This document shows positions 48,085-56,514 of a stretch of 64,000 nucleotides of DNA, one piece after another (the stretch's first letter is position 1; each line of letters opens with the position of its first letter). The stretch lies in assembly GCA_000310025.1 (NCBI GenBank), contig FN648493.1, forward strand, positions 70,699 through 134,698. The letters run 5' to 3'. The DNA is from Ectocarpus siliculosus. Its lineage: Eukaryota > Sar > Phaeophyceae > Ectocarpales > Ectocarpaceae. The notes under the pieces were generated by a model. That model saw only the letters and a list, made by a program, of their open reading frames with translations. It made no database searches and was not told the DNA's origin. The position numbers and the translations under genes were made by a program.

Positions 48085-49872
48085 GTGCTTCTCAACATCT
48101 ACGCACAAATGTTCGGTTTTTGTTTTCCACCAACGAAAAAGGTAGGAGTGGTGTTACAACGCATGGCAGAGTGTGGGGCGCAAGCGGTTGTGATAGTGCC
48201 AGACCAACAACAAACCTGGTATCCGATGCTGGCAGACGCCGCAGTACGGTCTTACACGATAGCCAAACAAGCAGAGGAATCGGTATTCTATCGAATGCAC
48301 CATCAGCGAGGGAAGGTGTCCTTGGCTTGTAAGCGCTGGGCGATGCGAGCGGTGGAGGTGAACTTCGCCGATAAATAATTGGAGGATTATTGTCTTTCGT
48401 TAATGTGTCTATCAGGCGCTATGAGGCTTGTTAACAGCGGCGAGGCTCATCTTGACTATTGTGGAGAGGTGGTGGTCGGGTACGGGCCAACAGCCACAAA
48501 ACCGGGGATCATCGATCAACCATGATCACTTGATCGAGGTGTCACCAGCACGATCAAGAGTTTTGTGTCCGCACTCAGAATGTTTAGGTGAAAACGATGA
48601 GCGATACAGGTATTGCCAATGGTGCGCGAAGGCCTGTACAAGTTCAGGTCGGAATCCTACAGTCGGGTCCTTAACCATTGACGAGGCCGCTCTAGCCAAG
48701 AGGTACAGAGAATTCAAGGAGGCAACGGCAGATACCGCGGCGATGAAGAGCAGATGTGCGACAATGATTACATACACGCAGTTTCTTCAGTCGCGAAAAA
48801 CCGGGCGTGTGGTGTCTATGACGGAATCTCAGCCGAGAGATATCGTTGACTATCTGTGCTGGTTAGATGCCTGCGGCAAGAGGAGCGTACAGTAGTGCAC
48901 GCAAGGGAATGTTAAGCGGTGGGCACTTCAAGCTTAGACGCTTGTTCAACCGAGCAGGGAGCGTGTACCAAGAGGTATGCTCACGATTCTCTGAGAACGA
49001 ACCACTTGTCAAAATTGGCGGTGGCTTTCGAGAAGGAGTTGGGGTGCACGCACGATTGGGACAGTCAACGACGAACAGGAAACCCAGTGAGAAGCGAGTT
49101 GGTGACACAGTACATGCGATTTACAACGAAGCAGCAAAAGCAAGGGGTACTCGTTCCTTTGAGGGCCGAGCTCGATTTTACAACATCAGCGGAGAAGAGG
49201 GTGACTTTGGCACGAGATATCGCTTTCTTCACAGTAGCGTTTAGCACGACGAAGAGAGGAGACGAGTTGGTAAACACGCTCATACAACGTATACGGCGGT
49301 TACCCAACAAGAGCGGTCTGATGTTCAATTTTCAATGGGAGAAGACGCAGCGAGATGGGGCGGATCACGTGTTATCAGTGGAGTACGACTCGGAGTGTCT
49401 GCCGTTATGCCCTGTTAGTGTGGTAGAGCGCTACATAGGCATGGGAAGAAGTGTGGGTTGGGATATGAGTACAGGCTATTTGTTTTCAGGCATTTCGGCG
49501 AGTAAGACAGGAAAGAAGCCGAAAAGAGAGCCGAGGCCAGTGAAGGCGGCATACATGACAGCAATGTTGAAGAATTACGCGAAAGGAGTCGGGTTGGAGC
49601 AGGAGTTTTCGATGCATTCGTTTAGGGCAGGGGGAGCCATTTCGAGGGCCCTAGCCGGAGAATCCCTTTCGACCATCATGCAGGTGGCGTTTTGGAAAAA
49701 CCCGAAGACGGCGTGGAGGTACGTGAGGTTGATGGAAGTGGTAGCTCTAGGAGCGGGAAGCGAAGGCATGGTAGAAGGGATCACGGAGGACCAGTACCGG
49801 GAGTTGAACGAGTTTCCACTAAGCGAACAAAGACGTTCATTGGCTGCGTTCGGGAACACGCCGTTACTCTAA
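48085..49872 (+). mobile_element. DIRS-type retroelement B, coding part
   Basis: Homologous to element A but on the plus strand: linker domain (48085-48378, with FGFCFPPTKKVGVVL and AVVIVPDQQQTWY) and then a tyrosine recombinase (48428-49872). No RNase H or reverse transcriptase was found to the left, so the copy is 5'-truncated or disrupted. Its 3' flank carries an 85-base repeat that reappears at 56.1 kb. Confidence 0.7.
48428..49872 (+). pseudogene. DIRS tyrosine recombinase B, frameshift and stop
   Basis: Zinc-ribbon N-terminus (CPHSEC...CQWCAK), a core-binding domain ending DYLCWLDACGK, then the catalytic domain: Arg in TTKRGDELVN, HSFRAGGA, and Tyr in KTAWRYVRLM; it ends FGNTPLL and TAA. 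Around 48893-48925 the frame shifts by one base and a TAA follows a few codons on, so it cannot be made as one protein. From 48931 to the end it is fully open. Element A supplies the alignment that reveals the two lesions. Confidence 0.7.
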
Positions 49873-49984
49873 GAAAAGAAAAGCCTACAACGAATAATAC
49901 TACGTATAGCACAGTATGGGATAAAACATACAACACCTTCAACTTGGCATCTGAAGGATGTGGAGTTAGTTTTGGAAAGGGTGA

Positions 49985-50070
49985 CTTCACCAGCCGCGGG
50001 AGGTGAAGCCGCTGTCTTATCCCACACTATAGGGGAAGAATAAACGGTCACAGAGATACTGCTGTATTAT
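49985..50070 (+). repeat. terminal repeat of element B, first copy
   Basis: Contains GACTTCACC...GGAGGTGAAG (a hairpin), CTTATCCCACACTATAGGGG and CGGTCACAGAGATACTGC. It recurs at 56128-56218. Confidence 0.75.
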
Positions 50071-50342
50071 GAAGACCGGTCCGGGAAATGTTCTATACAA
50101 TTTCCAGGAACGTTCGCACACGAAAGCACACGTATCACAGGGATGCCTCTCATCGCCACTTCTTTGGGCAACCAAGTGCCGACACGGCAAACAGGAGAAA
50201 ATAGAGAGTACGTTTAAAGCACCGCCCACCCACCCTTACAAGTGGTATGTAGTAGTACCTCAGGTGACGTTTATTTTCCAAAAATGCAGTCGCGATCAGG
50301 AGTGTCGATGAGTGTGGTAGAGACACAGGAGAACACTCATCG

Positions 50343-50581
50343 TTTATTTTGTTTTCTTTCGAATTGCTTCATTATTTCTTCGGTTTCTAGGCTACGTGTT
50401 GGGGAGAGAGACGCACGAAACGCTCATCGTCTCTCCGGCCGCGTTAGCTGCAAAGGCCCGGCGTCAACTCTTACAAATCCATCTCTCTCCCCACAAATAC
50501 TAGCCGGGGGACTACGACTGCAAACGCAGGAGTCCCAAAACTGACCAAGTCCTCAAATGGTACACACCATTCTACAACACC
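50343..50581 (-). repeat. element C repeat B2 (outer 3' end)
   Basis: 239 bases starting TTTATTTTGTTTTC on the plus strand; identical to B1 except one extra C in a CCC run. Confidence 0.9.
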
Positions 50582-50649
50582 TGACTAGATACCGAATATT
50601 CCCGAACTTATGCCCCCACCTTCGAAAGAAAAGGGATGGGAGGGCGGGA

Positions 50650-50912
50650 TTTTCTAAACTGCCGCCGCTACTGCGTTAGGCGGCTGCTGCTGTCCTTCCG
50701 TTGCTTCACGCGCTCTGTAGCTGTCACACGTTACCCGACTTTGCTACAGCCCCTGCGTGGACTCGATCACGGAATGACACCCCCAACTATAGACTAATAA
50801 TTCCAAACACCGTGACCCTGGGTTTCCGGTAGAAAATGAAGCCAAATTCTAATTCGACTGTTACAAAATAAACACCAGTTTATTCTATCTGCTTCGACGA
50901 ACAAACCTTCCT
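50650..50912 (-). repeat. element C repeat A2
   Basis: About 263 bases from TTTCTAAACTGCCGCC to GAACAAACCTTCCT; matches A1 at 55848-56109 with no difference noticed. Confidence 0.9.
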
Positions 50913-51150
50913 TTTATTTTGTTTTCTTTCGAATTGCTTCATTATTTCTTCGGTTTCTAGGCTACGTGTTGGGGAGAGAGACGCACGAAACGCTCATCGT
51001 CTCTCCGGCCGCGTTAGCTGCAAAGGCCGGCGTCAACTCTTACAAATCCATCTCTCTCCCCACAAATACTAGCCGGGGGACTACGACTGCAAACGCAGGA
51101 GTCCCAAAACTGACCAAGTCCTCAAATGGTACACACCATTCTACAACACC
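50913..51150 (-). repeat. element C repeat B1
   Basis: 238 bases ending TTCTACAACACC; copy of B2, directly joined to A2. Confidence 0.9.
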
Positions 51151-51191
51151 CACATCGAGGTCAGTTTCTGGACGACTACCGAATAAGTCAA

Positions 51192-52346
51192 CTATCCGTT
51201 CCCCCAGACGGTCCCCTCCCCCGGCTGTCTCGATACGATCCTACTGCCGTCTGTAAGTTTCCGTGACACTCGCCGCGAATCCTCTACATTGTTTCGCGCG
51301 TACGGCTTGTATGCATCCGACCTCCACTTCCCTTCTCTCTGAATCACTCGTTCTGCGATGTCTCCGCCCGATGCAAGAGCCGTCGCGCCTCCAATTCGCA
51401 ACGAGTGCAACGCGTACTCCTGGGGGTTACGCCCCGACCTCGCTACCACTTCTCTGAGTGCACGGAGGGCAGCAGTATACCTCACTACTCTCACTGCTCT
51501 TCCACTACGGTACGAAGCCAACGGTGCGGAGTCAGGGAACGTCGCATGACACGATAACAGCTCCACCACAAGAGCCACCGCGCCACCGCGTGCTCTCACA
51601 CCTGACTGCGGTCCGGTGACTTCGTCTCGCGTACGAACCCGTATGTTTCCTTTCTGCTCTTGATCGGCCTTGTGCCCTCTAAACCTCATTTCGACACGGT
51701 CTGCTCTACGATAGTGACTAAAGACTAATTGCGTCTCGCCAGCAAACAATGCTACGTCCGCCCTCGTAAGACAGTGTGCCTCATGCACCCTGCCCGCATC
51801 ATTCGCGAACACCTCATCAGACCGTGTGATAAAGAGATAGGACAAGCACAGACACAGCCACATCACTCTGCCCCCTTCCCCCCAGTTCTGGCTTGCGCTT
51901 TCCCCGTCCAGCAGCATACGCCAAGACACAGGCAGGCGCACACGGCGTACCGTCCCCACAGCCACGTGGTTCCTCGCAATCCCCCTTAGCGCACATTTCA
52001 ACATCGGAGACGACAAGTCTAGCTCGACAGAAGCTTCCAGCCTATGAAAATGTTGTACAGCCGTGAGTTTTCCGGATATTGTACTCGCTAGATTACCCTC
52101 AGACTCGAAACACCAGGCTACGAAGTCTATCAACTCCCACACATGAAGGTCCCCGGCACGTTGCCCTAGGAACTTGGGCTTCTCCGTCAGCCTGCGAAAC
52201 GTGCACCAAGAGTTGAAGCCTGACGTGTAAGTCCTTCTAGACGAAGACGCAACTGAGTGCTCGACGAGCTGCATGCCAAGACGTCGGTAACAAAGTCCCG
52301 TCCTGCCTGTCCCAGGTCCTGAACCTGCTGATAGCCCTGGAGCCAA
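51192..52346 (-). CDS. tyrosine recombinase of element C
   Basis: Integrase of the tyrosine-recombinase class. The frame is open from at least 52346; the first ATG is at 52274 (MQLVEHSVASSSRRTY), giving about 360 residues. The N-terminal core-binding part includes TSGFNSWCTFRR and LIDFVAWCF; the catalytic part includes LFITRSDEVF (first Arg), LHSLRIGGATALASGG (His and second Arg) and GKWRSDAYKPYAR (nucleophile Tyr). No stop or frameshift is visible, so it may be functional. It is only distantly like the DIRS recombinases of A and B; the S-SRRTY...G-x-x-W-x-x-F-C start is that of other eukaryotic retroelement recombinases. Lies 45 bases from repeat B1. Confidence 0.8.
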   Translation of the reverse strand: MAPGLSAGSGPGTGRTGLCYRRLGMQLVEHSVASSSRRTYTSGFNSWCTFRRLTEKPKFLGQRAGDLHVWELIDFVAWCFESEGNLASTISGKLTAVQHFHRLEASVELDLSSPMLKCALRGIARNHVAVGTVRRVRLPVSWRMLLDGESASQNWGEGGRVMWLCLCLSYLFITRSDEVFANDAGRVHEAHCLTRADVALFAGETQLVFSHYRRADRVEMRFRGHKADQEQKGNIRVRTRDEVTGPQSGVRARGGAVALVVELLSCHATFPDSAPLASYRSGRAVRVVRYTAALRALREVVARSGRNPQEYALHSLRIGGATALASGGDIAERVIQREGKWRSDAYKPYARNNVEDSRRVSRKLTDGSRIVSRQPGEGTVWGNG

Positions 52347-52417
52347 CCTCGTGTAGACCGGCGTGCTGCCGTTCGATTTAGCCGCAGGTGCGCTGCCATC
52401 CGAGGTAGGCCCCCCCG

Positions 52418-53387
52418 CTACGCGGGAGAGCCCGCACCCCTATTTGTCTTTCCCGTGGGTGAAGAAGCCAGCGGCCTTGGGTCTCGCGCCGCCCTCGCCA
52501 GCGGCGCGCGCCTCTCCTCCGCGCCCTCCCCCGTTGCCGTGGCCAACGCCGCGCGCGCCGGTTGCCGGAGTTTCGGACGCTCCGCGCCTAGCGTGGGAAG
52601 GGTTCTGGGCGTGGATGTGTGGGCAGTTACGATCATGGCAACCGGACGACGAGTTGAAGGCGAAGCAGTAACCACGAGCGTGTCGAGCGATGCCGCCACT
52701 TTCTCTGTCACCAGGACGCCTTTGCGAAGCAAGGATTGCCACTCCATCTGCGACAGTTTTGAAACTGCCGGGGGCCGCCCCAGGATGAGCCACGCTTTTA
52801 CCCGGCGGAGGTCCCCCCACATCCGCGCTCTATCCTTTGCCGTAGCCTTAGCCGCCTCGGCGCTGGGTGTAGCGGGGGCCCGAGAGGCCGATGGTGGGGC
52901 GGTTGTGCCCACAAGTTGCACCCCCCCCCGGAAGGCCAGGTCCTGCTGCTTGGGTGGCGATCAGGTCGTCGATCGTTGCTTGAAGCTGCTGGCGATCACC
53001 GGCAGCCTCATCGCGCTTCCGCTGCAGCTCCTCCCTCAGGCCGTCCACCAGCCCGCGGAGAGAAGCGAGCTCAGTCTCATCAGCGGGGGGGTCGCCGCGG
53101 GTGCCTGTCCCTGGCGCTCGCGAGGAGGATACCGCTCGACGCCTCGCGGGAGTACGTGATCCGCTGCGCGTCGAGGGGCGAGCCGTCGAGCTCGCCACCG
53201 ATCGCGCGGTAGACCTCTCGTGCGTGGTGTCGAAGGTGTCGCCGCCCGACCTCGCCCTGCTTGCCCAGCCGCTGCCCTGCCGCTCCGCGTGGAGGCCCGT
53301 GTCGGCATCTGGTCGCGGTTGGAGTCGTATAAGCAGCGGACCGGCGGCAGGCGGCGGGCGAGCGTCAGGGCGGCGTTGCGGGAACAC
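52418..53387 (-). pseudogene. gag-like CCCH zinc-finger region of element C
   Basis: Three overlapping minus frames cover this stretch. The first (from 53387) is Arg/Pro/Ser-rich and ends in a coiled coil (LRGLVDGLREELQRKRDEA). The second (52921-52418) continues with WGDLRRVKAWLILGRPP and MEWQSLLRKGVLVTEKVAAS. The third (to 52440) carries GYCFAFNSSSGCHDRNCPHIH, a C-x7-C-x4-C-x2-H finger of the kind found in gag proteins of tyrosine-recombinase retroelements. Changing frame twice to read this suggests frameshift mutations, or programmed frameshifts. High GC and matching long antisense frames complicate the call. Confidence 0.55.
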
Positions 53388-53439
53388 TTCTTTTCCTCTT
53401 CATCGTGGGCGTAGTCGATCGCGCGCCTGGATCTGCAGT

Positions 53440-53690
53440 TAGAATGGTCTACAAATCCTATCTTCGGGCGAAACTATCTGACGTGGGTTTTCGTCGGGCC
53501 CAGAACGACGCGTTGTTATATCGCGAGCTCGCGTTAGTTCATTCTCGACGCCTGTGGATTGAATGGAGTGATTATTGCTGCTGACGCTACGGTCACCGGA
53601 CGTCGACCAATCCCGAATATTTCTCTCTTTGGAACACTAGCGATGGTTTCTCTTTTTTTTTTTTTTTTTATATATATATTTTCTTGGATT
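53440..53690. other. element C internal, upstream of the gag-like frame
   Basis: No coding frame; ends in a T-rich run followed by TATATATATA. Confidence 0.4.
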
Positions 53691-53699
53691 CGGTGAACC

Positions 53700-54690
53700 C
53701 CGGTTCGCCATCGGCACGGGTGCTTCCACTCATTGGCGCGTCCCGTGCTGATACGTGTTTTTTTTTTTTTTTCGATGCGTTGGATACGGTGAACTCCACT
53801 TGCCAACAGCGCGGGTGCTTCCACTCATTGGCGCGTCCCTCGCTGAAACTGACAACACATATGCAGCACGGGTGCTTCCACTCATTGGCGCGACCCGCAC
53901 TGATGATACTTGTACGCAGCGCGGGTGCTTCCACTCATTGGCGCGTCCCTTGCTGAAACTGACAACACATATGAGCACGGGTGCTTCCACTCATTGGCGC
54001 GTCCCGTACTGATACGTGTATGACTTCGTTTTCGATGCGTGGAGATCGGTTAATTCTACTCGCCCAACAGCACGGGTGCGCCCACTCATTGGCGCGTCCC
54101 GTACTGATACGTGTACGGCGTTTTTGTTCTTTCTTTTTGAGATCGGTTAACTCTACTCGCCAACAGCACTCATTGGCGCGTCCCTTGCTGAAACTGACAA
54201 CACATATGCAGCACGGGTGCTTCCACTCATTGGCGCGTCCCGTACTGATACGTGTACGACTTCGTTTTCGATGCGTTGAATTCGGTTAACTCTACTCGCC
54301 AACAGCACGGGTGCGTCCACTCATTGGCGCGTCCCGTGCTGATACATGTACTTGCGTTTTGTTCTTTCTTTTTGAGATCGGTTAACTCTACTCACCAACC
54401 GCACGAGTGCTTCCACTCATTGGCGCGTCCCGTGCTGAGGCTGACATCACATATGCAGCACGGGTGCTTCCACTCATTGGCGCGTCCCGTACTGATGCAT
54501 GATTTGTGGTATTTTTCTACCGCTGCGTTGAATTCGGTTAACTCTACTCGCCAACAGCGCGGGTGCTTCCACTCATTGGCGCATCCCGTGCTGATACATG
54601 TATGACTTCGTGTTTCGTTGCGTTGAGATCGGTTAACTTCCACTCGCCAACAGCACGGACGAGTGCTTCCACTATTGGCGCGTCCCGTGC
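53700..54690. repeat. minisatellite within element C, about 13 units
   Basis: The motif GGTGCTTCCACTCATTGGCG followed by CGTCCCGTGCTGATACGTGT recurs about 13 times at 50-95 base spacing, with linkers such as GAAACTGACAACACATATG and GATCGGTTAACTCTACTCGCC. Open frames across it merely repeat the unit. Confidence 0.9.
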
Positions 54691-54699
54691 TGGTGCGTG

Positions 54700-55847
54700 T
54701 CCTTGTTTTTTTTATTTTCATTGAGATCACTTCCGCATAGACAATCCTACGGCAGGTTGACGAGTTTTTGGCATGCATCAATTGCTGTCCGGGCGTTTTT
54801 GGTCGCTTAATCGTCGATGGACGTGACGTATTCTTATAGAAGGTTTGTGTCACGGCGGCAATAAATTTGACGTGATGCCCCTCGAGACCGTGATGCACTC
54901 ACATGGACCGCTACCTGACGTTCCTCGCGAGTCCGAACCTCGCGTGTCACATCCACCTCCCCCCCCTATTTTTTTCTCATCTTCTTTTTCCTTATGCATA
55001 CAGCACGTAGTTCGCTGTCTCGTTTTTTTTTTCTCGTCTTCATTGTTTTTCAGTCTTTTTCTTTGAGTCTTTCTCTCGCATGCATGTGTTTTTGCTTTTA
55101 TCCGTTCCCGTGAATGCTGTTGAATGCACTTTCCGATTACGTATGCGGCCGCTTTGTATGCCATGGGACTTGTCGATACCATCAGTGGGGACTTGTCAAT
55201 ACCATCCGTGGAGACGATTGCTTACGTGAGTGGGCATATTATCGTCGATTCCTTCAGCTATATGCCCCTCTGTGCGCGGCACAGACAAGATTGTACCGGC
55301 AAGTAGTCCCTAGTAAGCCGGGGGAAACAGAAAACAAGGCACCTGCCTCATGTGCATAATCGTGACAGCATCATGCCCTACTGCCGCGGGTCGATTGGTT
55401 ATGTCCGATGCCGCAGGGTTCCTCCACCCCGTGCAGTACAATGGCTGCTATCAACCGCGACAAGTCAGCGTGCGACCATACAACAGGCCCCGCTCTTTCT
55501 TTTTGCCGTTGAATTTTTTCTTCAGAGAGAGTACGTCTGGTTGGGACGAACCGCATTTTTTTTCTTCAGCGAGAGTACGTCTCGGTTGGGATGAACCGCA
55601 TCCCATGTTTGGGAAGGGACCTATCTGAGCGGCGCGGCGAGCGAGACTGCGTTGGCTTGCCGCCGCTTATCTTACTGCACCCTCCCCCCTCGTGCTAAAT
55701 GCACGCAGCGGTGAGGTCACAAGAGTAGCGGGACGCGAATAGGAACACGGCCGACACGATGGATGTTGGACACGAGTACACACCTTTATATGGAGAGTCG
55801 CGTGCTGGTCACTTCCCCAATGCTTGCGCCGTGTCCCGTCCCGCCCT
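54700..55847. other. element C leader region next to repeat A1
   Basis: No convincing gene. Contains T-rich runs, a short duplication (GAGAGTACGTCTSGKTTGGGA twice near 55530-55595) and two GACTTGTC-AATACCATC words near 55170-55205. Confidence 0.4.
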
Positions 55848-56109
55848 TTTCTAAACTGCCGCCGCTACTGCGTTAGGCGGCTGCTGCTGTCCTTCCGTTG
55901 CTTCACGCGCTCTGTAGCTGTCACACGTTACCCGACTTTGCTACAGCCCCTGCGTGGACTCGATCACGGAATGACACCCCCAACTATAGACTAATAATTC
56001 CAAACACCGTGACCCTGGGTTTCCGGTAGAAAATGAAGCCAAATTCTAATTCGACTGTTACAAAATAAACACCAGTTTATTCTATCTGCTTCGACGAACA
56101 AACCTTCCT
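55848..56109 (-). repeat. element C repeat A1 (outer 5' end)
   Basis: Copy of A2; its right edge at CCTTCCT marks the 5' border of the element. Confidence 0.9.
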
Positions 56110-56127
56110 ACATTTCCTTTTCACGAC

Positions 56128-56218
56128 GGTTGACTTCACCAACCTAGCGGGAGGTGAAGCCGCTGTCTTATCCCACACTATAGGGGAAGAACAAACGGTC
56201 ACAGAGATACTGCTGTAT
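56128..56218 (+). repeat. terminal repeat of element B, second copy
   Basis: Matches 49985-50070 (hairpin, CTTATCCCACACTATAGGGG, CGGTCACAGAGATACTGC) and starts 19 bases outside element C. Confidence 0.75.
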
Positions 56219-56456
56219 TTCTATGTGTAACGTGGACGCAGGTAGCATCCTGTACGCTCACGTGTGAGGAAAGGACGTTCTTGCTGGTTGTCTGGTTTAT
56301 CGCCGTGTCCCGGAGCAACGACGAGCTGATGATGAAGTGTCCCGACTTGGAAGCAATGAAGTCCGGCAGCTTCCTGTCGTCCCACGACTTGTATACATGC
56401 CAGGAGCAGTCCGACCCATTCCTCGCAGTCATCTACATTTTAGATTTTTTTAGTGA

Positions 56457-56514
56457 AATATTTCATGGAAGTCCATGGAAGTCCATGGACTTCCATGGAC
56501 TTCCATGAAATATT
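56457..56514. repeat. 58-base perfect palindrome
   Basis: The two 29-base halves are exact reverse complements with no spacer (arm: AATATTTCATGGAAGTCCAT then GGAAGTCCATGG...). The inner part is a tandem of TGGAAGTCCA/TGGACTTCCA. Confidence 0.95.

Follow-up and report, generated by a model that had tools for sequence, protein, structure and literature searches.

Among tyrosine-recombinase (YR) retrotransposons, Ngaro elements are separated from DIRS and PAT by the lack of a methyltransferase domain. To our knowledge, the expression of the recombinase in these elements and the origin of their non-autonomous forms are little understood. TOC1 of Chlamydomonas, with a length of 5.7 kb, has split repeats and an internal tandem array but no reverse transcriptase (RT); we know of no full YR frame or splice-like boundaries in it. 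Ngaro-type elements of Cafeteria, ~6–7 kb long, share the arrangement A1-[ORFs]-B1A2B2, where ORFs are open reading frames, with gag, RT-RNase H and YR in this order (PMC8547959). For Ectocarpus, 15 Ngaro families with mostly young elements have been described, together with Copia derivatives having a gag-like single ORF, and the accessible text on Ngaro/PAT-like families makes no mention of RT-less Ngaro elements or of splicing (PMC12477816). Here we describe an RT-less element of 5767 bp on the minus strand (50343–56109) of a 64,000-nucleotide stretch of Ectocarpus siliculosus contig FN648493.1, hereafter called the window. This element belongs among the Ngaro-like YR retrotransposons, is non-autonomous and descends from an RT-bearing member of its own family. 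SIRE of trypanosomes, the short relative of VIPER, is likewise a non-autonomous derivative of a split-repeat YR retrotransposon; SIRE retains end sequences of ~185 bp and 220 bp (PMC6681497), whereas the window element retains the YR and its missing part has splice-like boundaries.

A first-pass annotation of the window, made from its letters alone, had proposed an A1-ORFs-B1-A2-B2 order with almost identical repeat pairs. Our analysis recovered this order on the minus strand as A1, a leader with a tandem array, a broken gag, YR, B1, A2 and B2, with A2 adjoining B1 and a 68-bp spacer in front of B2; the 263 bp of A1 recur unchanged in A2, and B1 and B2 are one inserted base apart (Table 1). 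The B1|A2 junction consists of both element ends joined, which fits the circle model of YR retrotransposons. The absence of RT and RNase H, also proposed, was confirmed by tblastn of the 768-aa RT/RNase H protein of an RT-bearing relative (locus L008) against the whole window, in which only residues 1–39 and 723–768 matched (52190–52439). The 683 middle pol residues are gone from the element, and outside it the family RT/RNase H protein has no match in the 64-kb window (tblastn). Since pol residues 1–39 map to its beginning, the 415-codon YR frame opens with the start of pol, which supplies its first 39 codons. No RT frame was found within 53.4–55.8 kb, where the annotation would have taken one as evidence against an RT-less form; this region is the leader with its tandem array, and RT belongs at 52324/52325. 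The annotation erred in placing the CCCH motif and the recombinase ~70 bases apart, as the two share one reading frame that is interrupted by a single TAG. A comparable CCCH motif is also present in the gag of L008 and of the more distant L028.

To characterize the copies of this element, the genome was searched with the YR protein (101 of 755 candidates scored, 102 rows listed). Among the listed rows, 47 cover the full 415 residues, and 43 of these contain no internal stop. An identical 415-aa protein is encoded at at least 13 loci, the window included, in line with the recent movement and intact recombinase that had been suggested. In six rows (L004 and L008–L012), the YR match starts only at residue 37. 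These six loci contain ~2.05 kb extra, encoding RT/RNase H, exactly between gag and YR, and the window matches both flanks; they are longer relatives of the kind that the annotation had advised looking for, and the proposal of a deleted, RT-less form is borne out by them. L008 comprises 8439 bp with A1, gag (564 codons), RT/RNase H (768), YR (392), B1, A2 and B2. The 768-codon frame is uninterrupted in L008 and L009, and the RT/RNase H frame of the related L028 is also unbroken. In four of the six RT-bearing copies, the A and B repeats are 97–99% identical to those of the window. A second genome search, with RT (67 of 392 candidates scored, 70 rows), assigned eight loci to the window family and revealed related loci at 66–68%, ~51–57% and ~37–44% identity, among others. 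RT is present between gag and YR in all six families sampled; beyond family 1, that of the window, one or two loci were read per family.

Further copies of the 5.8-kb form, which the annotation had suggested looking for, proved abundant. The spliced-type junction pattern occurs at 116 genome places with three or fewer mismatches (reversed control, 0). At least 100 of these places are RT-less junctions, 87 with no mismatch and 13 with one; some of the remaining 16 are RT-bearing, because the RT-bearing acceptor differs from the pattern by three mismatches. The unspliced donor pattern was found at seven places (reversed control, 0). For every RT-bearing copy there are more than ten RT-less ones, and the junction of a 511-bp gag deletion that marks the window form is present at 72 genome places. 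There is good support that the element is RT-less, was amplified recently and stems from an RT-bearing family.

The boundaries of the missing segment resemble those of an intron. In RT-bearing copies, the extra segment begins CAG|GTGTGGATG and ends GACTGGCAG|GTTCAG, while RT-less copies read CAG|GTTCAG; the missing 2054 bp correspond to CAG|GTGTGG...TGGCAG|GT, i.e., an intron-like GT-AG segment. The junction is base-identical in all 19 RT-less loci with both sides readable. At L001, seven readable upstream bases agree with it, and at L007 the place of the junction is deleted. A homologous donor GT was identified in families 1–4, the four sampled ones whose RT identity is 53% or more (the family-4 donor being placed by eye with two candidate GTs), and an AG is present at the acceptor in all six families. 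Two further losses in the gag of the window lineage, of 511 bp and ~78 bp, have ends that are not GT-AG; splicing was rejected for these, and we call them deletions. Among the copies read, both gag segments are present in the RT-bearing family-1 copies except L012, and L017 and L025 retain the 511-bp one.

The arrangement of reading frames is consistent with this intron-like character. In five of the six sampled families (1, 3, 4, 5 and 6), gag and pol lie in one frame separated by a single stop, which is TAG, but TGA in C50. In family 2, the arrangement is not displayed by any single copy: in L027 the TAG is immediately followed by the pol frame, and in L029 the gag runs up to the TAG but pol is out of frame. 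Single copies can be frame-shifted, as is the gag of L008. Four more distant families (C11, C112, C14 and C241; 37–40% RT identity) show no gag-stop-pol arrangement in the parts that were read, and they are not included in the family counts. A hairpin follows the stop, with eight or nine of nine stem pairs in nine sequences of the six families (pairs were counted by script, the 3' arm being chosen for best pairing). Its arms contain paired changes on both sides, e.g., C-G to G-C and C-G to T-A, and in a shuffle control of one sequence nine of nine pairs were obtained in 2 of 2000 shuffles. The YR frame differs from the pol frame and overlaps its end. The segment length is 2 mod 3 (2054–2063 bp) in L008, L009, L012, L027, L028, C228 and C27b; the segments of C50 (0 mod 3) and C25 (2 mod 3) were not counted, as the donor there is GC. 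Because of this frame arrangement and length, removal of the segment turns Gag-stop-RT into Gag-stop-YR in copies with an unbroken pol frame.

Based on these features, we consider it likely that RT resides in an alternatively spliced intron and that spliced genomic RNA was reverse-transcribed in trans, with subsequent amplification of the short form. From unspliced RNA of the complete form (L008, 8.4 kb), Gag would be translated and, by readthrough of the UAG in front of the hairpin, also Gag-RT/RNase H. With the RT segment removed as a GT-AG intron, the same Gag-UAG leader would be followed by the YR frame, giving Gag-YR. The spliced genomic RNA would retain both element ends and may occasionally be packaged and reverse-transcribed by RT acting in trans, and once the product had formed a circle via the split repeats and been inserted by YR, an RT-less copy would result. 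Such copies would have multiplied on borrowed RT, with the window lineage losing further parts of gag. Splicing itself, readthrough, packaging and the supply of RT in trans are steps that we infer. Since the short form has no RT, the enzyme must come from elsewhere, and its source would most simply be the RT-bearing copies that share the ends of the short form; the annotation had likewise raised mobilisation by another element as a possibility.

To compare the histories of RT-less and RT-bearing copies, a YR tree was built from 27 rows (21 RT-less and 6 RT-bearing), the test assuming no recombination between copies. The RT-less rows do not form one clade; their monophyly costs 37.6 log units (p-AU 0.00043), and the least number of changes is two. 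Lineage I is the window form, and lineage II consists of L005 and L006, which are ~6% different in YR DNA and have a gag deletion of their own as well as a non-coding insert of 2.5 kb. This insert was considered as a hidden RT and rejected, as none of its frames exceeds 160 codons and its position is upstream of the gag remnant. In L005 and L006, the gag remnant runs into YR without a stop, forming frames of 522 and 533 codons. The RT-bearing L012 parts lineage II from lineage I (100/100), the placement of the RT-bearing L010 being less sure (80/80), and the junction is identical in both lineages. L012 is closer to lineage II than to lineage I in its 5' part (85.9 versus 80.7%) and in gag (95.0 versus 90.1%).

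An RT-less element was also sought in family 3 (L028), whose YR is 60–63% and RT 53% identical to those of family 1, and whose homologous places read AAG|GTGGG and TGGCAG|GAAC. Locus C183 (L030) was chosen because residue 11 is where its YR match starts, a feature of family-1 RT-less copies; this start already made the absence of RT likely, while the exact bases were unseen beforehand. The splice rule predicted AGACAGCAAG|GAACAACTC, written down before the letters of C183 were seen, and C183 reads GACAGCAAG|GAACAACTTTTGG, as predicted for the family-3 junction. It encodes a 496-codon gag, the TAG and a fused YR frame of 422 codons. Together, the tree and family 3 support at least three apparent losses of RT, each at GT-AG boundaries.

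Furthermore, the repeats are consistent with movement through RNA. In the RT-less L005, L016, L017 and L026, the A1 and A2 of the same insertion are identical or sisters, yet they differ between copies; the bootstrap for the A1/A2 sister pairs is 85–94 in L016, L017 and L026. In L006, A1 and A2 are 99.6% alike and are not separated as a pair in the tree. L001, L002 and the window have one common A sequence, hence they are uninformative on A1/A2 pairing, and the RT-bearing L009 provides no pair as its A2 is cut. Concerted A1 and A2 would be expected if each insertion derives from one RNA template, though gene conversion could imitate this pattern.

Several observations weigh against splicing as the origin of the short form, and some of them favor the alternative that template switching or recombination between short direct repeats removed the RT segment while the RNA was being reverse-transcribed, with the RT-less lineage still mobilised in trans. 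A 6-nt repeat, GCAGGT, flanks the family-1 segment, so that seven boundary placements are possible there and slippage could have occurred; in family 3 the junction repeat of 3 nt allows four placements. The predicted spliced junctions of families 2 and 4 gave 0 matches in the genome, and the 511-bp and ~78-bp losses in the window lineage demonstrate that deletions without GT-AG ends do occur. In addition, GTGTGG matches the donor consensus only fairly well, the donor is G|GC and not G|GT in families C50 and C25/C178, and the segments of L004, L010, L011 and L029 have other lengths mod 3, with indels present in pol. The YR of L012 is slightly nearer to lineage I (95.7%) than to lineage II (94.2%), a mosaic kinship because of which recombination between copies could blur the tree. 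The family-3 spliced-type junction was found in the genome only at C183, which ends at B without A2-B2 and whose hairpin is damaged, the stem being lost. Nevertheless, deletion at repeats would require one breakpoint to have been used two times in family 1 and its homologue in family 3, whose repeat is only 3 nt long; the GT-AG ends and the gag-YR phase would be coincidence, and the exact family-3 bases were foretold by the splice rule. We therefore regard this alternative as unlikely, although it is the strongest of the rivals.

Movement of the 5.8-kb form as DNA, by Crypton-like excision and reinsertion through YR without reverse transcription, would suit the open YR frame kept in 43 of the 47 full-length listed rows and the insertion without target duplication. 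The split repeats, however, have been kept, and A1 and A2 are concerted within a copy, as expected if both come from one RNA template (the pattern that gene conversion could imitate); cut-and-paste alone does not account for at least 100 copies, and we judge this explanation highly improbable. Cryptons, which are DNA elements with a YR only and no split repeats, also differ from the window element in that split repeats are present here and pol remnants show an RT-bearing ancestor. That the RT-less form is the older state, which RT entered later, would agree with the greater number of RT-less copies and with the two-change tree, which also permits one gain and one loss. This order of events seems scarcely credible to us, as RT lies between gag and YR in all six sampled families and both ends of pol are retained in the window. 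The preferred explanation is that of an RT intron, spliced genomic RNA and reverse transcription in trans.

The protein identity of the components rests on relatives and motifs. The window YR protein matched nothing in Pfam, PHROGs or NCBIfam; its 63% identical relative in L028 matches a PHROG integrase (E 7.7e-4), and the YR alignment contains, by eye, ITRSDE, HSLR and a later Y, which we take to be the YR catalytic motifs. RVT_1 was matched weakly by the pol proteins of all four RT-bearing relatives compared (best E 0.005), in which RNase H and YVDD were recognised by eye only. No methyltransferase was matched by Pfam in the three L008 proteins, Pfam also detecting YR and RT poorly here; a PAT-like element would combine split repeats, which are present here, with a methyltransferase domain. 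Sequence searches of solved structures gave no kin for YR or pol, and the AlphaFold models of these two proteins (mean pLDDT 31 and 34) were too poor to use. A frame of 1341 codons apparently joined to YR in L001 was rejected as an artefact of an assembly gap of N. The pN/pS between the window YR and that of RT-bearing L008 is 0.17. Among RT-less YR pairs it is 0.44–0.99 in nine and 1.65 in one (L023), values that rest on few changes and are uninformative, so pN/pS does not appear to demonstrate selection on YR among RT-less copies, a further point on the opposing side. The YR of L023 and of L024 each contain a stop.

Table 1. Features of the RT-less element, listed in coding sense (window coordinates)
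Feature	Position	Strand	Basis or remark
A1 repeat, left end (5' in coding sense)	55847-56109	-	263 bp identical to 50650-50912; end and empty site
Leader tandem array, ~95-bp units, without RT	53703-54730	-	Also in RT-bearing copies, length varies
gag-derived region, broken	52440-53473	-	Frame change and 511-bp deletion relative to RT-bearing relatives, junction 52675/52676
CCCH zinc-finger motif C-x8-C-x4-C-x3-H	52611-52667	-	By eye; inside ORF 52440-52829
In-frame TAG between gag and pol/YR frame	52440-52442	-	Stop in same frame in related families
Hairpin after stop, candidate readthrough signal	52408-52432	-	Position transferred from hairpins of relatives
Residual pol N-terminus, residues 1-39	52323-52439	-	tblastn
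Junction CAG|GT, site of missing 2054 bp with RT/RNase H	52324/52325	-	GT...AG in relatives
415-codon open frame, 39 pol codons and in-frame tyrosine recombinase	51192-52439	-	ORF list
Residual pol C-terminus, residues 723-768, other frame, overlaps YR frame	52190-52327	-	tblastn
B1 repeat	50913-51150	-	Near identical to B2
A2 repeat, directly adjoins B1	50650-50912	-	Identical to A1
Spacer between A2 and B2, 68 bp		-	Repeat coordinates
B2 repeat, right end	50343-50581	-	One base longer than B1

The element is nested in another YR-bearing repeat (window 48425–50342 and 56110–56219), which encodes a 318-codon YR (PF00589, E 0.0014; PHROG integrase, E 3.9e-5) and contains a 91-bp repeat at 49978–50068 and 56128–56219. 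Five other copies of the invaded repeat reach the boundary; four were read (C104, C63, C14 and C11) and C32 was left out. In all four, the empty site of this one insertion reads CATCG|ACATTT apart from point differences, with neither target duplication nor loss. The right-hand B of the element copies that were read ends at one same base, and the DNA beyond differs. At the right end of L016, a fragment of an A repeat directly follows B2, which suggests that one copy inserted in another copy's A repeat. L024, L012 and L030 (C183) have only one B at their right end, with A2-B2 not seen, as recombination between B1 and B2 would give. Elsewhere in the window, a perfect 58-bp palindrome (56457–56514) consists of two 29-nt arms with zero spacer. 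A light-harvesting gene of the genome has fucoxanthin chlorophyll proteins as its nearest relatives, which points to a fucoxanthin alga as host. Contigs C92, C232 and C488 have clustered matches to light-harvesting genes with identical scores, apparently near-identical copies.

Hepatitis B virus (HBV), which as a virus does not need integration, and the barley retrotransposons BARE1 and BARE2 offer the nearest comparisons for splicing of a genomic RNA. The BARE1/BARE2 system involves a facultative GT-AG intron in retrotransposon RNA and a defective partner packaged in trans; unlike the proposed intron of the window family, that of BARE1 is 104 nt long, its spliced RNA leads to Gag only, and no spliced form was obtained when genomic DNA was amplified (PMC3735527). 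HBV splice variants derive from spliced pregenomic RNA, and replication-defective variants are rescued by proteins in trans (PMC11019940); the spliced form described here, in contrast, would be inherited and outnumbers its parent. Compared with the Ngaro-type elements of Cafeteria (PMC8547959), the window element has the split repeats, a YR downstream of gag/RT in its family and integration without target duplication, and lacks RT/RNase H, one of the defining features. Its RT-bearing relatives differ from them in having gag and pol in one frame with a stop and hairpin, and in apparently reaching YR by splicing. In the open-access literature, represented mostly by titles and the openings of abstracts, no report was found of RT being removed by splicing in a YR retrotransposon.

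Going beyond the individual loci, we lean towards the view that in this group of algal YR retrotransposons the RT gene may act as a facultative intron, in which one splice would switch Gag-RT to Gag-YR and repeatedly create RT-less satellites that are inherited; one of these outnumbers its parent more than tenfold. If this is true, the overlapping of the YR and pol frames would be accounted for by splicing, which predicts split reads that join CAG|GT to CAG|GT. The genomic junction would then be a fossil of splicing, and splicing would constitute a recurrent route by which a complete retroelement gives rise to a parasitic satellite that keeps the recombinase and the element ends without a polymerase.

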